Shown one piece after another: positions 24,160 to 40,351 of a stretch of 42,385 nucleotides of DNA. Location of the stretch: the NCBI GenBank assembly GCA_037386965.1, contig JARRLN010000010.1, positions 1 to 42,385 of the forward strand, given 5' to 3'. The first letter of the stretch is position 1. Each line of letters opens with the position of its first letter. The notes beneath the pieces were generated by a model that had not been told where the DNA came from, did no database searches, and saw only the letters and a list, made by a program, of their open reading frames with translations. Position numbers and translations under genes: made by a program. Source of the stretch: Nitrospirota bacterium. GTDB lineage: Bacteria > Nitrospirota > Thermodesulfovibrionia > Thermodesulfovibrionales > JdFR-86.

Positions 24160-26727
24160 CTACCGGGGGGCCGCTCCCTGGAAGGCGTTGGGATGGCAGT
24201 GGACACAGATATCGAAGGGTTTATCGGCCTTGTACTTGAAGAGGTCGATGTAGGCGGAGCTGTGGGGGTCGTGGCAGCTGGCGCAGGTGAGGATACCGTA
24301 TTTCGATTTCGGGTCCTTCTTCCCCGTGAGGGGGTGCCCCGCGCTCGTGAAGGTCCCCGCCGCATGGCCGCCCTCGGGGATGGACGGATGGCAGGAAAGG
24401 CAGACCTCGTTTATGGGCAGCCGGGAGACCGCCGGATTGGGCGACGCATGGGCGTCGTGGCAGGCGAAGCACAGGCCCGAGGCGGCGGGAACGTGCTTGT
24501 TTTTCCTCTGGAACTTCGCCCGGTCGTGGCACATGAAGCAAAGGTCCGGGACCTTGTCCCTGAGGAGCTTCTCCTGTGTCCCCTGGTGGGGTTGGTGGCA
24601 GGTCAGGCACTGCCCCTCTCCCACGGGCTTGTGCGTATAGGCCCCCGTGAAGCGGGCGCGGTTATGGCAGATGAAGCACAGCTCCGTACGGTCGGCGACG
24701 AGGAGACTCTCCCTGTCCCCGGAGTGCGGCGTATGGCAATCCGCGCACATCCCGGCCAGGACGGCCGGATGAACGCTCTTCTGAGACGTGAACTGGGTCT
24801 TGTTGTGACAGGAGAAGCACAGCCCGGGGAGCTTGTCCACGAGCATGTTGCCGGCGGCGTCGGAGCTGTGGGGGTCGTGGCACGTGGTGCACATCCCCTG
24901 GGCGGTGGGCGTATGGGCCACCTTCTTCGTAAACTGCTCCTTGCCGTGGCAGTTGTAGCAGAGCTCCGGGGGCTTCACGTAGAGGAGCTTGTCCTCGGAT
25001 GTCGAATGGGGGCTATGGCACGTCGGGCACATGCCCGCGGCCACCGGGGGATGCGTGGAAGAACGGGTGAACTTCTCTTTCTGGTGGCACATGTAGCAGA
25101 GCTCGGGGGACTGCTTGACCAGCATGTTCGCCTTCGCGGTGGAGCCGTGAGGGTCGTGGCACGTCGTGCACATGCCCATCGCCACGGGGGCGTGGACGAC
25201 CTTCTGCGAGAACGCCTTCTTCCCGTGGCATCGGTAACAGAGCTCCGGGGGCATCTCCAGGAGAAGCTTCTTCTTCTCTCCGCCGTGCGGACTGTGGCAG
25301 GACGTGCACATGCCCGCCCTGACCGGCAGGTGCACGGACGTCTCATCCTTCGTGACGAGGTCCCCGTGGCAGGTGAAGCACAGGGTCGAGGGGCTGCTCA
25401 CCAGGAGCTTTTTGCTGGTGTCGGTGCTGTGCGGCTCGTGGCAGCTCCCGCACTGCCCCGCGGCCACCGGGGGATGCATGTTCTTGCCCTGGAAGGCCGT
25501 CTCGTCGTGGCACTGGAAGCACAGCGCAGGGCTCTCGGCCACCAGGAGTTTCTCGCGCTTTCCCGCGTGGGGCTTGTGGCAGCTCGTGCACATTCCCGAG
25601 GCCACGGGAACGTGCTGGAATTTCTTCATGAAAACTTTCTTGTCGTGGCACTGATAGCACAACTGCGGTATTTTCTCGGCCAACAGGTCGCCGGCGACCC
25701 GCGAGCTGTGGGGGTTATGGCACGTGGTGCACATGCCGCCCGCCACGGGCTGATGGACCGTCTCGCCGTAGAAGGTCTTCGGGTCGTGGCAGTTATAGCA
25801 GAGCTCCGGGGGCGGGGCCACGAGAAGCTTTTTTTCCGTTGCCGAGCTGTGGGGGTTGTGGCAGGACGTGCACATCCCGCCTTTTACGGGCATATGGACG
25901 GACCTGCCCTTGGCCATGCTCTTGTCGTGGCACTGGAAACAGAGCTTGGACTGCCCTTCCTTCAGCAACCTGTCCTCATCGCTGGCGTGAGGCAGATGGC
26001 ACATGTCGCAAGCCCCGGAGGCTACCGGCATATGCTGGTACTGCTGCGTGAACGCCTTCTTGTCGTGGCAGCCGTAGCAGAGCTCCGGCGGCTGCTTCTT
26101 GAGGATGGCCTTCTTGCTGTCGGCGCTGTGGGGGTCGTGGCACGAAACGCACATCCCCGCCTGCACCGGGGCGTGCGTCGTCTTCTTCATGAAGGCCTCC
26201 TTGTCGTGGCAGCCGAAACAGAGTGCGGGCATGGGAGCGGAAAGGAGAGACTTCTCGCCGCTTGTATGGGGGGAGTGGCAACTGGTGCACATCCCGGCGG
26301 CCACGGGCGCGTGCTGCGCGCTCCGGGAGAACATCTCCTTCTGGTGGCAACGGTAGCACAGGCCGGGCGGGGGCTCGGCCAGGAGCTTGGGGTTGTCCGA
26401 GCTGTGCACATCATGACAGAAGAGGCACTGCCCCTGCGCCACCGGGCCGTGCACGACCTTGGAGGAAAAGGACTTCCTGTCATGGCAGGCAAAGCAGAGG
26501 TCGGCGCCCTCGGCGAAGAGCCCCTTGGGGTGGTCGGGGTTGCGCTGGTGCGCCTGGACGTGGCAGCTCTTGCAGCCCATGGAGACGGCGGGATGGACCA
26601 CTTTCTTTTCCGTCAGTTTGGCGTGGCAGTCCCGGCACTTGGACATGTCCTGAGCCGCGCCCAGGGCGGGCAGGAGCACAAAGAGCAGAAAAAACAGCTT
26701 CACGGCCGGGATTTTCATGGCGTCCAT
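24160..26727 (-). CDS. Giant 35-heme c-type cytochrome built from 15 diheme repeats
   Basis: 855 residues with signal peptide MKIPAVKLFFLLFVLLPALG (an ATG at 26718 is an alternative start) and 35 CXXCH motifs. Residues ~31-56 hold a two-heme head (CRDCH, CKSCH). Residues ~78-763 hold fifteen ~46-residue repeats with the pattern LCYxCHxKxxF, HxPVAxGMC, TSCHxPHSS and LLxxxPPE. Residues ~776-850 hold a three-heme tail (CLSCH, CASCH, CVHCH). Every heme pair carries further His residues able to act as distal ligands. Its length suggests an extended wire of 10 nm or more that could span the periplasm or reach beyond the outer membrane; this is inference. It leads the operon of OmcS-like cytochromes and shares head and tail with the 7-heme protein at 2593-3168. 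Confidence 0.93.
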   Translation of the reverse strand: MDAMKIPAVKLFFLLFVLLPALGAAQDMSKCRDCHAKLTEKKVVHPAVSMGCKSCHVQAHQRNPDHPKGLFAEGADLCFACHDRKSFSSKVVHGPVAQGQCLFCHDVHSSDNPKLLAEPPPGLCYRCHQKEMFSRSAQHAPVAAGMCTSCHSPHTSGEKSLLSAPMPALCFGCHDKEAFMKKTTHAPVQAGMCVSCHDPHSADSKKAILKKQPPELCYGCHDKKAFTQQYQHMPVASGACDMCHLPHASDEDRLLKEGQSKLCFQCHDKSMAKGRSVHMPVKGGMCTSCHNPHSSATEKKLLVAPPPELCYNCHDPKTFYGETVHQPVAGGMCTTCHNPHSSRVAGDLLAEKIPQLCYQCHDKKVFMKKFQHVPVASGMCTSCHKPHAGKREKLLVAESPALCFQCHDETAFQGKNMHPPVAAGQCGSCHEPHSTDTSKKLLVSSPSTLCFTCHGDLVTKDETSVHLPVRAGMCTSCHSPHGGEKKKLLLEMPPELCYRCHGKKAFSQKVVHAPVAMGMCTTCHDPHGSTAKANMLVKQSPELCYMCHQKEKFTRSSTHPPVAAGMCPTCHSPHSTSEDKLLYVKPPELCYNCHGKEQFTKKVAHTPTAQGMCTTCHDPHSSDAAGNMLVDKLPGLCFSCHNKTQFTSQKSVHPAVLAGMCADCHTPHSGDRESLLVADRTELCFICHNRARFTGAYTHKPVGEGQCLTCHQPHQGTQEKLLRDKVPDLCFMCHDRAKFQRKNKHVPAASGLCFACHDAHASPNPAVSRLPINEVCLSCHPSIPEGGHAAGTFTSAGHPLTGKKDPKSKYGILTCASCHDPHSSAYIDLFKYKADKPFDICVHCHPNAFQGAAPR
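24439..26496 (-). repeat. Fifteen tandem ~137-bp coding repeats (diheme module)
   Basis: The repeat unit encodes two CXXCH motifs and averages about 46 codons. Copies differ at the DNA level, mostly in the first residues after each CXXCH, so expansion is old or the copies are diversifying. The conserved core is HxPVAxGMCTSCHxPHSS. Confidence 0.85.
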
Positions 26728-26826: not shown

Positions 26827-29800
26827 CTAGGGGAAAGTAACGGTGAACTCGGCCTCCGAGCCCCGCCCCCAGGAGCCCTCTCTGCGCACCTTCAGGGACA
26901 GGGTCTCTCCCGGGTGCTTGTCGAACAGGGCGATGCGGAGGTCGGAGATTTCCTTTATGTCCAGGCCGCCCGCGCTGACCAGGACGTCGCCGGGCTGAAG
27001 GCCCGCCTTTGCCGCGGGGCTGTCCGCGGCCATTTCCTTGATGCGAACGCCCTCTTCGCCCTTCTCCAGGACCACGCCCAGCTTCTCCGGCTCAGGGGCC
27101 GCGAGGGGCTGGGCAAAAACCACATAGTCGGCCATCCCCGGGACCAGGTGCTCGCCCTCCGGAGAGCCGAGGAGAATGGCGTAGTCCTTTCCCGTGAGGC
27201 GGTACGCCCGCCGGGGAATCCCCGAGCCGAAGGCCACGTGGGAGGAGCCGGCCAGAACGACCATCTGGTAGCCCGGATAGGTCCGGAAAAAGTCCGCCAC
27301 CGCGTGGGCCATCGTCTCGTCCCAGAGGATTTGCGCCTGGTAGAAGTTCGTAAAAGAGCCGTTGTCGTGCACCGTGAAAGCGGCACGGAGCCTTTCTTTG
27401 TACCCCGCATCGGAGAAGTCCATGTCTTCGGGGACCTGGCTCCTCTCCTCCTTGCCGAGGGCGTCCAGCCCGCCCTCGGCGACCTTCTTGACGACCTCGG
27501 CCTTCTGGTTGAGGGCCACCACCGGAATCTTATGCGTGCGGGCGAAGCTGAGGATTTCCCGGTACAGGTGATAGTTGTACCGCCAGCGCTCGTAGTACTG
27601 CGTCTTCTTCAGGAGCTCCTGCTCGTCGATGTTTCCCGCGACATACTCGTCAAGGGCATCCTGGAAGGGGCGCTCGAACATCTCCATGCCGATGCCGAAG
27701 GGGCGCCCTTCCTCCTGGAGGGCCTTGAGCAGGGCCAGCTGCACCCGATGGTCCTGGTAGCGCGCGTGCCCCTCTCCCACATAGATGACGGGCTTGTCGA
27801 TGACCTTTCGTATCGCCTCGTCCAGGGATACGCCGCTTCCGGGCACCATGGCCGAGGCGCGCATGGAAAGGTCGAAGCGCATACCCTCCTGGCTGGGCAG
27901 AGTGTAGGAAAGAACCCTCTCGCCGTCCCTGAATCCGAGCACGGAGGAAGCGTCGTCCCTGAAAAAGGCGTGTGAGGAACTCAGCACCTGGAAGGCCTCC
28001 GCCGCCTCTACCGAGGCAACCACCCGCCTCCCGTTCAGGGGGTTCTTCCGGACGGCCAGCTCCAGGGCCGCTTCCCCCCCGCGGGGCTGGCCCGCTTTAT
28101 CGAGGGCCTCGCGGAACGGCGCGTCTCCGGCGTAAAGGCGCCCAAGCACGGGGCTTCCGTGCCCCAGCACCATGAACGACGCCTTGCGGATCTCCTCGTC
28201 AGTCACCTCCGTTTCGTCCTTCAGGGTAAATCCCCGTTCTCTCAATGTTTCGAGAAGTGCGGCGTACTTCTTCCGTTCCGCGTCGTCCCCGGGCAAGGCA
28301 ACGATGCGCTCGGGACTGCCCAGAAAAGCCGACAACACCGGGGGGGTCTCGTCCTCGTCAAGCACCCGCAGAACGTCGTACCCGGGGTCGACGACGAGCT
28401 CCGTGGGCTGCCCCGGGGTCTTGAGCGACACGTACTGGACCGGCTCGGTTACCTCCACGTCCGTCTCGTGGGCGCCTGCCTCCGTGTCGACGACCACGGG
28501 GAGACTGAAGCGGTAGGGCTTGCCCTGCTGCCTCAGGGTAAAGGTCACCCTGTAGCTCCCGTCAAGAAGCAGGGCGCGGGGCTCGCTCACCGTAAAGGAG
28601 GGCACCCCCGGCCGCTCGACCCACTGGGCGAAGAACTCCTTGAGGTCCTTCCCCGAGGCCACCTCGAAGGACTCCCTCACGTCCGTCCAGGAGGCCATCT
28701 TGAAACGGCGTATCTTCACCAGGTGCTGTAGGGCCTGAAAGAGCGCGTCCCTTCCCACTTTCCTGTCGAGCATGTGGAAAAAGACCACCCCCTTGCCCTG
28801 CATCATGGCCCGGCCCGCGGCGTCCTCGGGGCCCTTGTAGTCGGCCAGGCTCGTGCCGCCGCCGCCCTGGGCGTAGTTGTTATAGGTAACGAGGGCCTTC
28901 TTGCGGAAGGCGGCGTCCCTTTCCTTCCGCTCGGCAAAGAGGTGCTCCGAAAGGAAGGCCGTCAGCCCGTCCCCCCAGTCTCCCTGATGGACGTCCACAT
29001 AGAGGGAATTGCCCACCCACTGGCTCAAAACGTCCCTGGCCACGATGGGCTCGGCCAGGAACGGCCGGCGGGCGATGTCCCATCCCAAAAGGGCGTAGGT
29101 GGGCATGGAATGGCTCTCGGGCAGGACGTTCTCGACGATGAACAAGTGCCTGTAAGGGTAATCCCCGAGCACCTCTTCATAGAAGCGGATGTACTTCTTG
29201 GCCTGCTCGATGTAAATGTCCGACAGTTTCGCGTCCCGGGGGAACAGATATGTGTAGATGACCGTGTTGCCCACGTAGCCGGCGTTCCTGCTGTACGGGC
29301 CCGCCGTGAGGGTCAGGGCGGGAAGGGGGTTTTTGAAACGGAAGGAATACCGGGTCTGGTTCCCGGGGAGGCCCTCCGGCCGTATCTCGTCGTTCTCCGA
29401 CACGGGGACGAAGCCGTCGGGCAGGGTAACGGTCAGCCGGTAGTAGGCCAGGTGGTCCTCGGTCTGCACAATGGGGTACCAGTGGCCGGTAAGGAAAAGC
29501 CCCTCCTTGTCGATGATGCCCTCCCTGACGACGGGAAGCTCTTCGTCCTTCACGATCTCGTTCCCGGGGAAAACGCCCTCGAAGCCCACGACGAGGACGC
29601 CGGCCGTGGGGCCGACCGTGAAGACCCCGTCAGTGGGCGTAACGTCCAGCATCTCGCCGTTCAGGGCGACCCCCGTCAAGCGGAGCTTTCCCAGGTCCAC
29701 CGTGTACTGTTTCTCCACGGGCAGAATCACCCGCACCCTGCCCGTCAGCAGATGCTTGGACGGCTCCACGGTCACATTTATTTCATGCTCCGGCAGAAGC

Positions 29801-29886
29801 GGCCCTTCGATGAGCTGCACCGCAGCGGCCGGCACGGCGGCGGCCACAAGGATAAAAACGACGAGCGGGACCACGACGTTACGCAT
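26827..29886 (-). CDS. Three-domain exported protein: catalytically dead M1-peptidase-like, ChaN-like haem-binding, PDZ
   Basis: 1019 residues from ATG 29886, with AGGAGG at six bases and a perfect TATAAT at 29908-29913. Signal peptide MRNVVVPLVVFILVAAAVPA. Residues ~20-440 follow the M1 aminopeptidase layout. Where active enzymes read HExxHQWxGN, this one reads ARDVLSQWVGN, and the downstream NEG motif is GDG, so all zinc ligands are lost. Residues ~670-920 match the ChaN-like haem/iron-binding family (VIYVGEGHARYQDHRVQL, IGMEMFERPFQDALDEYV, MVVLAGSSHVAFGSGIP). A PDZ domain ends the protein (KEMAADSPAAKAGLQPGDVL). Next to ten cytochrome genes it may handle haem or act as a chaperone. Confidence 0.85.
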   Translation of the reverse strand: MRNVVVPLVVFILVAAAVPAAAVQLIEGPLLPEHEINVTVEPSKHLLTGRVRVILPVEKQYTVDLGKLRLTGVALNGEMLDVTPTDGVFTVGPTAGVLVVGFEGVFPGNEIVKDEELPVVREGIIDKEGLFLTGHWYPIVQTEDHLAYYRLTVTLPDGFVPVSENDEIRPEGLPGNQTRYSFRFKNPLPALTLTAGPYSRNAGYVGNTVIYTYLFPRDAKLSDIYIEQAKKYIRFYEEVLGDYPYRHLFIVENVLPESHSMPTYALLGWDIARRPFLAEPIVARDVLSQWVGNSLYVDVHQGDWGDGLTAFLSEHLFAERKERDAAFRKKALVTYNNYAQGGGGTSLADYKGPEDAAGRAMMQGKGVVFFHMLDRKVGRDALFQALQHLVKIRRFKMASWTDVRESFEVASGKDLKEFFAQWVERPGVPSFTVSEPRALLLDGSYRVTFTLRQQGKPYRFSLPVVVDTEAGAHETDVEVTEPVQYVSLKTPGQPTELVVDPGYDVLRVLDEDETPPVLSAFLGSPERIVALPGDDAERKKYAALLETLRERGFTLKDETEVTDEEIRKASFMVLGHGSPVLGRLYAGDAPFREALDKAGQPRGGEAALELAVRKNPLNGRRVVASVEAAEAFQVLSSSHAFFRDDASSVLGFRDGERVLSYTLPSQEGMRFDLSMRASAMVPGSGVSLDEAIRKVIDKPVIYVGEGHARYQDHRVQLALLKALQEEGRPFGIGMEMFERPFQDALDEYVAGNIDEQELLKKTQYYERWRYNYHLYREILSFARTHKIPVVALNQKAEVVKKVAEGGLDALGKEERSQVPEDMDFSDAGYKERLRAAFTVHDNGSFTNFYQAQILWDETMAHAVADFFRTYPGYQMVVLAGSSHVAFGSGIPRRAYRLTGKDYAILLGSPEGEHLVPGMADYVVFAQPLAAPEPEKLGVVLEKGEEGVRIKEMAADSPAAKAGLQPGDVLVSAGGLDIKEISDLRIALFDKHPGETLSLKVRREGSWGRGSEAEFTVTFP

Positions 29887-30033: not shown

Positions 30034-30062
30034 TTGACAAATCGCCCCGGCACGCCTACAGT
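30034..30062 (+). promoter_or_regulatory. Sigma-70 promoter of the candidate selenoprotein gene
   Basis: TTGACA at 30034-30039 and TACAGT at 30057-30062 are separated by exactly 17 bases. The start would be near 30069, just before a short CCCCCGGCAAGGGGG hairpin, leaving a ~47-base leader to the ATG at 30116. Confidence 0.65.
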
Positions 30063-30115
30063 AGCATTCGAAGCCCCCGGCAAGGGGGATGCGCACGGAG
30101 CAAGGAGGTGCCGTC

Positions 30116-30373
30116 ATGCTGATAAGGCTTTTTCTGAATGACCCGCAGGGACGGCGGTGAAAAACCATCGGCTCCGTGGTCGCGGAGCTTGGAAAATCCT
30201 ACGCCTTCGATGTCGAGATAATCAGAAAGCCCGAGGCCGGCAGGCTCGGCCGCCCTTCCCTTCCGAAATTCCCCGCCATGGAGATAGACGATGAGCTTTT
30301 CTTTGAGGACGGGGGAACGTCCGTGAAAGAGCTCGAGCGGGAGCTCATCCGCAGAAACGCACCCAGGGCGTAA
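30116..30373 (+). CDS. Candidate small thioredoxin-fold selenoprotein (in-frame TGA at codon 15)
   Basis: ATG 30116 follows a nine-base Shine-Dalgarno (AAGGAGGTG) at five bases. It reads MLIRLFLNDPQGRR, then TGA (30158-30160), then continues in the same frame for 70 protein-like residues to TAA. With the TGA read as selenocysteine the product is 85 residues: a beta strand (LIRLFLN), Sec15, a helix (GSVVAELGKSY), a strand (FDVEII), a Pro-containing loop and strand (LPKFPAMEIDDELFF) and a final helix (VKELERELIRR). That order is thioredoxin-like. A SECIS-like hairpin with GGUC in its loop follows the TGA by ten bases. The alternative is a simple nonsense mutation, or initiation at GTG 30176, which has no ribosome site. 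No Sec machinery is in the window. Confidence 0.6.
30171..30188 (+). promoter_or_regulatory. Bacterial SECIS-like hairpin after the in-frame TGA
   Basis: GCTCCG (30171-30176) pairs perfectly with CGGAGC (30183-30188) around the loop TGGTCG. The loop contains GGUC, as in the E. coli fdhF SECIS loop. GGUC begins 17 bases after the TGA, close to the 18 bases in fdhF. A U-G pair could close the loop to GGUC exactly. Confidence 0.55.
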
Positions 30374-30632: not shown

Positions 30633-30663
30633 AGGCGGCCCGAGCACGTGGTTCGGGCCGCCT
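30633..30663. terminator. Strong hairpin in the leader of the DUF6448 gene; terminator-like on the minus strand
   Basis: AGGCGGCCCGA (30633-30643) pairs perfectly with TCGGGCCGCCT (30653-30663), extendable by two more pairs. Read on the minus strand it is followed by TCTTTATTT, like an intrinsic terminator, yet no minus-strand gene ends here. On the plus strand it lies about 40 bases before the ATG of the 30704 gene and could act as a leader structure. Confidence 0.55.
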
Positions 30664-30703: not shown

Positions 30704-31303
30704 ATGAAACCCAGAACAGTCCTTTTGACGGCGGGGGTTTTCCTTGCCTCTCTGTTTGCTTTGCCCGGCGGGGCCGCCGCGCACTGCGACACGCTGGGCG
30801 GGCCGGTGGTGGCCGCGGCCAAGACGGCCCTGGAGACGGGCGACATCACGCCCGTGCTGAAGTGGGTGAGGAAGGAGGACGAAGCAGAAATAAGGGAGAT
30901 GTTCGAGAAGGCCCTCGCCGTCAGAAAGAAGGGGCCGGAGGCGCGGGAGCTTGCCGACATGTACTTCTTCGAGACGCTGGTGCGCATCCACAGGGCCGGC
31001 GAAGGGGCGCCCTACACCGGGCTCAAGCCTGCCGGAGCCGTGGAGCCGGCGGTAGAGCAGGCCGACCGGGCGCTTGCTAGCGGGAAGGTCGACGGGCTCG
31101 TCCGGCTGGTCACCGAGGCCGTCCGGGAGGGAATCCGCGAGCGTTTCCAGCGCGCGTACACGCGCAGTGAGCACGCCCAGGACAGCGTTGCGGCAGGCCG
31201 CGCCTTTGTCCGGGCCTACGTGGAGTTCACGCACTACGTTGAGCGGCTCCACATGGATGCGACGGCGCACGGCGGGGCGGAAACGCACGAGCATCACCAG
31301 TGA
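30704..31303 (+). CDS. DUF6448 family secreted protein
   Basis: 199 residues. GGGAGGTG stands five bases before the ATG, and the signal peptide (KPRTVLLTAGVFLASLFALP) is cleaved before HCDTLGGPVV. The motifs HCDTLGGPVVAAAKTALETG, TPVLKWVRKEDEAEI, ELADMYFFETLVRIHRAGEG and APYTGLKPAG are the hallmark of DUF6448, a family without assigned function. The mature protein is helical and has a His-rich C-terminus (HGGAETHEHHQ), which could bind metal. The gene is monocistronic and convergent with the ABC transporter genes. Confidence 0.85.
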   Translation: MKPRTVLLTAGVFLASLFALPGGAAAHCDTLGGPVVAAAKTALETGDITPVLKWVRKEDEAEIREMFEKALAVRKKGPEARELADMYFFETLVRIHRAGEGAPYTGLKPAGAVEPAVEQADRALASGKVDGLVRLVTEAVREGIRERFQRAYTRSEHAQDSVAAGRAFVRAYVEFTHYVERLHMDATAHGGAETHEHHQ

Positions 31304-38917: not shown

Positions 38918-39250
38918 TTCGGAGCTTACCTGATGAGGAGCGAGGGGGACCAGACGGTGGAGAAGTGGATGTTCCGGAAGGCCTTCGAGGACATGCTTCC
39001 CTGCTCCGTGGTCTGGAGGGTGAAGCAGGAGTTCTCCCAGAGCTCGGGCTCCGCCCAGGTGCTCCCGCAGTATTTCGAGGAGAAGATGAGCGACGCGGAG
39101 TTCGAGCAGTGGAAGGCGGAGCACCCGGTAATCAGGAGCAAGGAGGAGCAGTACTATTTCCGTGTCTTCACCGAGCACTCCGGCTCCGACCATGCGGTGC
39201 GCACCGAGGGGCAGTGGGCTGCCTCTGAGAGAAGACCGGAGCCGCTGTTT
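38918..39250 (+). pseudogene. asnB: Asparagine synthase C-terminal fragment
   Basis: The frame reads GAYLMRSEGDQTVEKW, then RKAFEDMLPCSVVWRVKQEFS, KMSDAEFEQWKAEHPVIRSK and EEQYYFRVFTEHSGSD. This matches the C-terminal end of AsnB-type glutamine-hydrolysing asparagine synthases (EKW.LRKAFE..LP..V.WR.KE.FS). The glutaminase and most of the synthetase domain are missing, so the gene is dead. The open frame continues past the usual end into unrelated sequence and by chance joins the deacetylase remnant, giving a false 472-residue fusion. Confidence 0.75.
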
Positions 39251-39321
39251 CAAAAAAGAAGGGTTAACGAACGGGGCAAAGCGCGGGAAAATGGGAAGAG
39301 CGTTCTCATTTGGGGTGAGCG

Positions 39322-40351
39322 ATGGCCACGGCAATCCTCTACAGCGAGAAGATACGGGAATACGACCTCGGTCACGTCCTCACCGCAGAAAGATACCGGA
39401 ACTTCATGCGCCTGTTCGAGGAGAAGCTGGGTGACAACCCTCTTTTCCAGGTGGTGGAGCCGCCCTATGCCACCGACGAAGAGGTGCGAAAGCCGGGACC
39501 CCATGGACACCCCCCTTTCCCCTCCTCTGGTAAGGGCGGCCAGGCTCATGGCCGGTGCGGGAAAGCTGGCTGGGGAGCTGGTGCAGACCGGGGAGTTCGA
39601 GAAGGCGGCCTCCATCGGCGGGGGCGTGCAGCACGCCTCCCGGGAGCAGGAGCGGGGGTTCGGGGTTTTCAGTGACACCGGCATCTGTGCCAGGAACCTG
39701 ATACGAAACCATGGGGTGGAGCGGGTGATGATCATCGACACCGATGCCCACGCCAGCGAAGGCCTGTACCAGATTTTCTCGAGGGACCCCCAGGTCCTCC
39801 TGCTTTCCCTCCACCAGGACACCGGCACCCTATACCCAGGACCCGCCTGGGGCAGGGTGGAGCAGACCGGGGAGGCCGAAGGGGAGGGATACTCCATCAA
39901 CGTTCCCCTCCCGCCCCATACGGGCGACGAGGCCTACGGCATGGCCCTGGAGGAGGTCTTCACCCCGGTGGCCGAGGAGTACGGGCCCGAGGTCATCCTC
40001 ATGGTGGACGGGAGCGACACGCATTATAGCGATGGCATAACGCAGATGGGGCTTACCCTCAAAGGGCTCCGGGACATCGCAGGCCGGGTGCGGAAGACCG
40101 CGCACAGGGTGTGCGGGGGCAAGGTGGTGAGCTTTGTGGGCTCGGGCTACGACCGTGAGGGCCTGCTCCTGCCCCGGGGGTGGCTGGCATCCATCTGCGG
40201 GCTCACCGGCGTAGAGCTGGAGCTTGAGGAGCCCTATCCCGCCCCGCCAGGGCTCGGCAGGGGGCGCAGCCTGGAGGAAACCAGGAAGGTCATAGAGACG
40301 GTCAAGAAGCACCTGGCCCCCTACTGGGGGTGCTTCTCCCAGGCGGCATAG
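39322..40351 (+). pseudogene. Broken histone-deacetylase/AcuC-type deacetylase
   Basis: ATG 39322 begins MATAILYSEKIREYDLGH and runs to YATDEEVR (39490). The rest of the family (SRDPMDTPLSPPLVRAARLM, GGGVQHA, FGVFSDTGI, IDTDAHASEG, YSINVPLPPHTGDEAY, DGSDTHYSD) continues in another frame. About 30 residues of the normal sequence at the junction, including the usual H-x-x-x-Y stretch, are missing, so this is a deletion with frameshift. Zinc ligands D and H of DTDAH survive; the catalytic HH pair reads QH. It is a decayed deacetylase acting on acetoin, acetyl-CoA synthetase or polyamines in relatives. Confidence 0.75.

Follow-up and report, generated by a model that had tools for sequence, protein, structure and literature searches.

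The locus at positions 30116-30373 of the window, by which we mean the complete 42,385-nucleotide stretch of Nitrospirota DNA analyzed here, raises the question of whether a TGA codon lying inside a short reading frame is translated as selenocysteine (Sec) and, if so, to which protein family the product belongs. The frame opens with an ATG at 30116, meets the TGA at codon 15 and runs on for 70 codons to a TAA at 30371-30373, which would yield a product of 85 amino acids with Sec at residue 15. The original prediction had described this arrangement, preceded by a Shine-Dalgarno sequence and a TTGACA-17-TACAGT promoter and followed by a SECIS-like hairpin, and all of these elements were recovered:

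30034..30062, plus strand: putative sigma-70-like promoter TTGACA-17-TACAGT (consensus scan, 10/12 matches)
30102..30109, plus strand: Shine-Dalgarno sequence AAGGAGGT, read off the sequence, its GGAGG core ending 7 nt before the ATG
30116..30373, plus strand: probable tsoC-type selenoprotein gene (NF045708 match; 49 family members compared)
30158..30160, plus strand: in-frame TGA, predicted to be read as selenocysteine from the aligned codon column of the family
30170..30189, plus strand: bacterial SECIS-type hairpin of 8 bp with a GGUC loop (fold -15.6 kcal/mol; covariation; published bSECIS limits)

Promoter-like sites occurred at a mean of 0.1 in shuffles of the region. The predicted protein reads MLIRLFLNDPQGRRUKTIGSVVAELGKSYAFDVEIIRKPEAGRLGRPSLPKFPAMEIDDELFFEDGGTSVKELERELIRRNAPRA.

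The original prediction had found no Sec family to which this protein could be assigned, a view overturned by comparison with NCBIfam. The protein scores 57.9 bits against NF045708, 'NEPxGxxU motif selenoprotein TsoC', for which the curated cut-off is 45, and a six-frame search with the same model also exceeded the cut-off, at 49.1 bits. The window motif NDPQGRRU corresponds to NEPxGxxU with Asp in place of Glu, as in many relatives, and the TGA falls at the position of U. Pfam offered no model for the window protein, and Rfam returned chance matches only. A contig search with the single protein as query gave no match; with the alignment as query, it retrieved 12 loci.

TsoC has already been described: a 2026 review, in its listing, gives it with the motif GxxU, credits it to Haft and Tolstoy 2025 (mSystems), and presents Tso as a three-selenoprotein operon (PMC13188914). 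The window protein shares with TsoC its length, the motif N-x-P-x-G-x-x-U and a score above the curated cut-off, but differs in the Asp of its motif (NDPQGRRU), in belonging to a Nitrospirota group with the sequence LPKFPA-x-EIDG/D and about 30% identity to the highest-scoring TsoC proteins, and in the absence of a Tso operon around its gene. TsoA gave no match in a search run without a positive control, and TsoB gave no true match, the best score being 58.5 of 805 bits, far below the cut-off; the gene is therefore a new orphan tsoC outside the Tso operon. With it, a recently named selenoprotein family gains an orphan member, and an annotation treating TGA solely as a stop would miss the gene or cut it short.

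The family was next followed through the phylum, where it was found in 45 of 396 Nitrospirota genomes, with 20 passing the curated cut-off. Across the 49 Nitrospirota matches, counting the window gene itself, 39 have TGA at the codon corresponding to that of the window and 10 have TGC or TGT, with no other residue at this position. Homologues with Cys at codon 15, the check proposed by the original prediction, thus exist, and no random residue takes their place. Three groups can be distinguished: the high-scoring TsoC proteins (NEPxGxTU), the window's own group (NDPxGxRU ... LPKFPA, together with its Cys forms), and a third group with NDPMGKRU, which also carries a CPS motif and lies mostly below the NF045708 cut-off. 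Residues N8, P10, G12, C/U15 and P53 are invariant in the family. Two genomes each carry a pair of TsoC-type selenoprotein genes that come from different groups and are no more than about 1 kb apart (L038/L058 and L039/L062), and in L021/L050 there are two TsoC-type copies of one group.

These comparisons bear directly on two other readings of the locus. The TGA might terminate translation after all, as a genuine stop or through a nonsense mutation, the downstream frame being a pseudogene or an open frame by chance, and the failure to find a copy in five other sampled genomes of the host's own taxonomic family would fit this; against it, TGA at this very codon, or else Cys, is found in relatives from many genera, and homology extends across both sides of the TGA. 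Alternatively, the genuine product might start at GTG 30176 and carry no Sec site. Although a 65-codon frame does run from this GTG, such a protein would be missing strand 1 along with the active site, where most of the invariant family residues lie, and a Shine-Dalgarno sequence, strong before the ATG at 30116, is not evident before the GTG; we consider this start extremely unlikely.

The hairpin downstream of the TGA was then assessed. Its stem pairs GCUCCG with CGGAGC across UGGUCG, beginning 10 nt past the TGA; lengthened to 8 bp, it closes on a GGUC tetraloop located 17 nt downstream of the TGA. Published limits for bacterial SECIS elements are a stem of 4-16 bp, a loop of 3-9 nt with G in its first two positions, a loop distance of 16-37 nt from the UGA and an energy of at most -7.5 kcal/mol (PMC13188914). 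The window hairpin lies within all of them in stem length, loop, distance and fold energy. By itself, the hairpin is nevertheless near chance level and is weak evidence. Model-like hairpins of at least 6 bp follow 102 of 516 and 77 of 472 TGA triplets on the two strands of the window (~18%), a stem of 8 bp or longer also turns up in about 11% of the gene's synonymous recodings, and shuffling gives a z-score of just -1.2. The E. coli fdhF SECIS also places GGUC in its apical loop, about as far from the UGA as here, but its stem is different and the protein is unrelated.

Comparison among relatives is more telling. When 12 Sec members of the window's group were aligned without gaps, 88.1% of cells in the 7-pair stem were paired, against 30-46% in slid controls, and four pairs have changed on both sides, a number reached by 1 of 500 shuffles; the aligned rows are related sequences, and these counts are not independent events. 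Among six Cys members of the same group, the stem forms in 31.0% of cells, no better than in shuffles. Three fixed positions were considered over all groups: at the best of them, a choice that favours hits in both sets alike, a stem of at least 4 bp occurs in 38 of 39 Sec members and 5 of 10 Cys members, and an early loop G is present in 37 of 39 and 2 of 10, respectively. We regard the hairpin and the Sec site as real because the codon column holds TGA or Cys and nothing else, and because the pairing persists in Sec members but not in Cys members.

The same data weigh on two rival explanations. A single hairpin of this kind can occur by chance in the window DNA, which would fit the TGA being a stop or a nonsense mutation, but the hairpin covaries, and together with the codon column this leaves the stop or pseudogene reading very improbable. 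The hairpin might also be a terminator for minus-strand transcription whose position after the TGA is coincidental, and a scan does pick it up as terminator-like on the minus strand, with a TTTT tail. Yet no minus-strand gene is seen to end at this point, the nearest starting near 29886; sites of this type are as numerous as in shuffled sequence (mean 1.0); and Sec relatives retain the stem amid different surroundings whereas Cys forms have lost it, so that a terminator role can hardly be credited.

For decoding of the UGA, all four genes named for checking by the original prediction were found in the genome:

selA, C131: 590 bits
selB, C13: 363 bits
selC (tRNA-Sec), C20: 75 bits; anticodon tca by ARAGORN
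selD, C114 (L017): 362 bits; own in-frame TGA in ARTCGUAAK

Given its in-frame TGA (TCGUAAK), SelD is probably itself a selenoprotein. With a codon column of TGA or Cys only, the sel genes present and covariation of the SECIS stem, the selenoprotein reading stands, and decoding of the TGA as Sec appears well supported by comparison. We put the probability that the gene encodes a selenoprotein of the TsoC family at roughly 0.93.

AlphaFold modeling (13 sequences, Sec entered as Cys) gave a pLDDT of 79.5 and a pTM of 0.67 and predicted strand-helix-strand-helix-strand-strand-helix as the succession of elements. The first predicted helix spans residues 13-25, with Sec15 close to its start, and the invariant P53 lies just before the third predicted strand. 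The best Foldseek matches in the PDB are nearly all thioredoxins, though weak (best E 9e-4, TM ~0.55-0.7), and a PDB sequence search returned weak thioredoxin-like matches only. The model thus agrees with the thioredoxin fold anticipated by the original prediction, with the active residue predicted at the start of helix 1; the anticipated Sec after GRR with no second Cys is likewise seen in NDPQGRRU and the 85-residue sequence. Proteins of the thioredoxin-like MTH895/ArsE family (TIGR00412) have a CxxC pair as a rule. The window protein shares their fold class, and its close relatives match that family weakly (25-31 bits), but these scores are below the cut-off of 62, and the window protein contains a single Sec but lacks Cys altogether, which excludes an intrachain cycle of the CxxC type.

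We propose that the UGA at codon 15 would be read as Sec by SelB and tRNA-Sec, aided by the hairpin at 30170-30189, placing a selenol at the start of the first helix (NDPQGRRU), with P53 probably taking the position of the thioredoxin cis-Pro. Because there is no second Cys, a one-selenol mechanism seems most likely, in which the selenol would attack a disulfide or persulfide and be regenerated by an external thiol; alternatively, the protein may carry sulfane sulfur.

The genomic context of the relatives suggests sulfur handling. TauE/SafE sulfite exporters (Pfam PF01925) occur within a few genes of relatives at five loci (L095, L096, L098, L099, L100), and ArsR/SmtB-type regulators, weakly TsoR-like (NF045707) and below the cut-off, lie near relatives in L093, L098 and L050. 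In L098, TusB/TusC-like proteins and an SQR-like flavoprotein are also found near the relative, with similar genes in L058 and L101 and a related flavoprotein in L091. None of these sulfur-linked neighbours lies alongside the window gene, whose neighbours encode a ChaN/PDZ protein on the minus strand and, at 30704-31303, a DUF6448 protein. Besides the gene itself, all that the window and the relatives' surroundings have in common is generic matches (histidine kinases and one further frame). Taking the fold together with the relatives' neighbours, a redox or sulfur-transfer role is reasonably likely. It is possible, though doubtful, that the Nitrospirota forms (NDPxGxRU, often near TauE/SafE and ArsR-type sensors, the window protein being without a second Cys) constitute a distinct functional branch of TsoC, acting as monoselenol sulfane-sulfur carriers or persulfide reducers tied to sulfite export. 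The Cys forms as a comparison set and the recurrent sulfur-pointing neighbours make function testable.

Several other features of the window were recorded. A perfect 11-bp inverted repeat at 30633-30663 (AGGCGGCCCGA ... TCGGGCCGCCT, 9-nt loop), in the interval separating the selenoprotein and DUF6448 genes, has no T run. The minus-strand neighbour at 26827-29886 encodes a large protein that matches ChaN/Tiki-like and PDZ models and, weakly, an M1-peptidase-like one, and beyond it the minus strand encodes a multihaem cytochrome (24160-26727) with 17 doubled-CXXCH matches. At 38933-40351, a 472-codon frame combines an asparagine synthase match (residues 8-74) with a histone-deacetylase-like domain (189-410), representing either a fusion or a start placed too far upstream.
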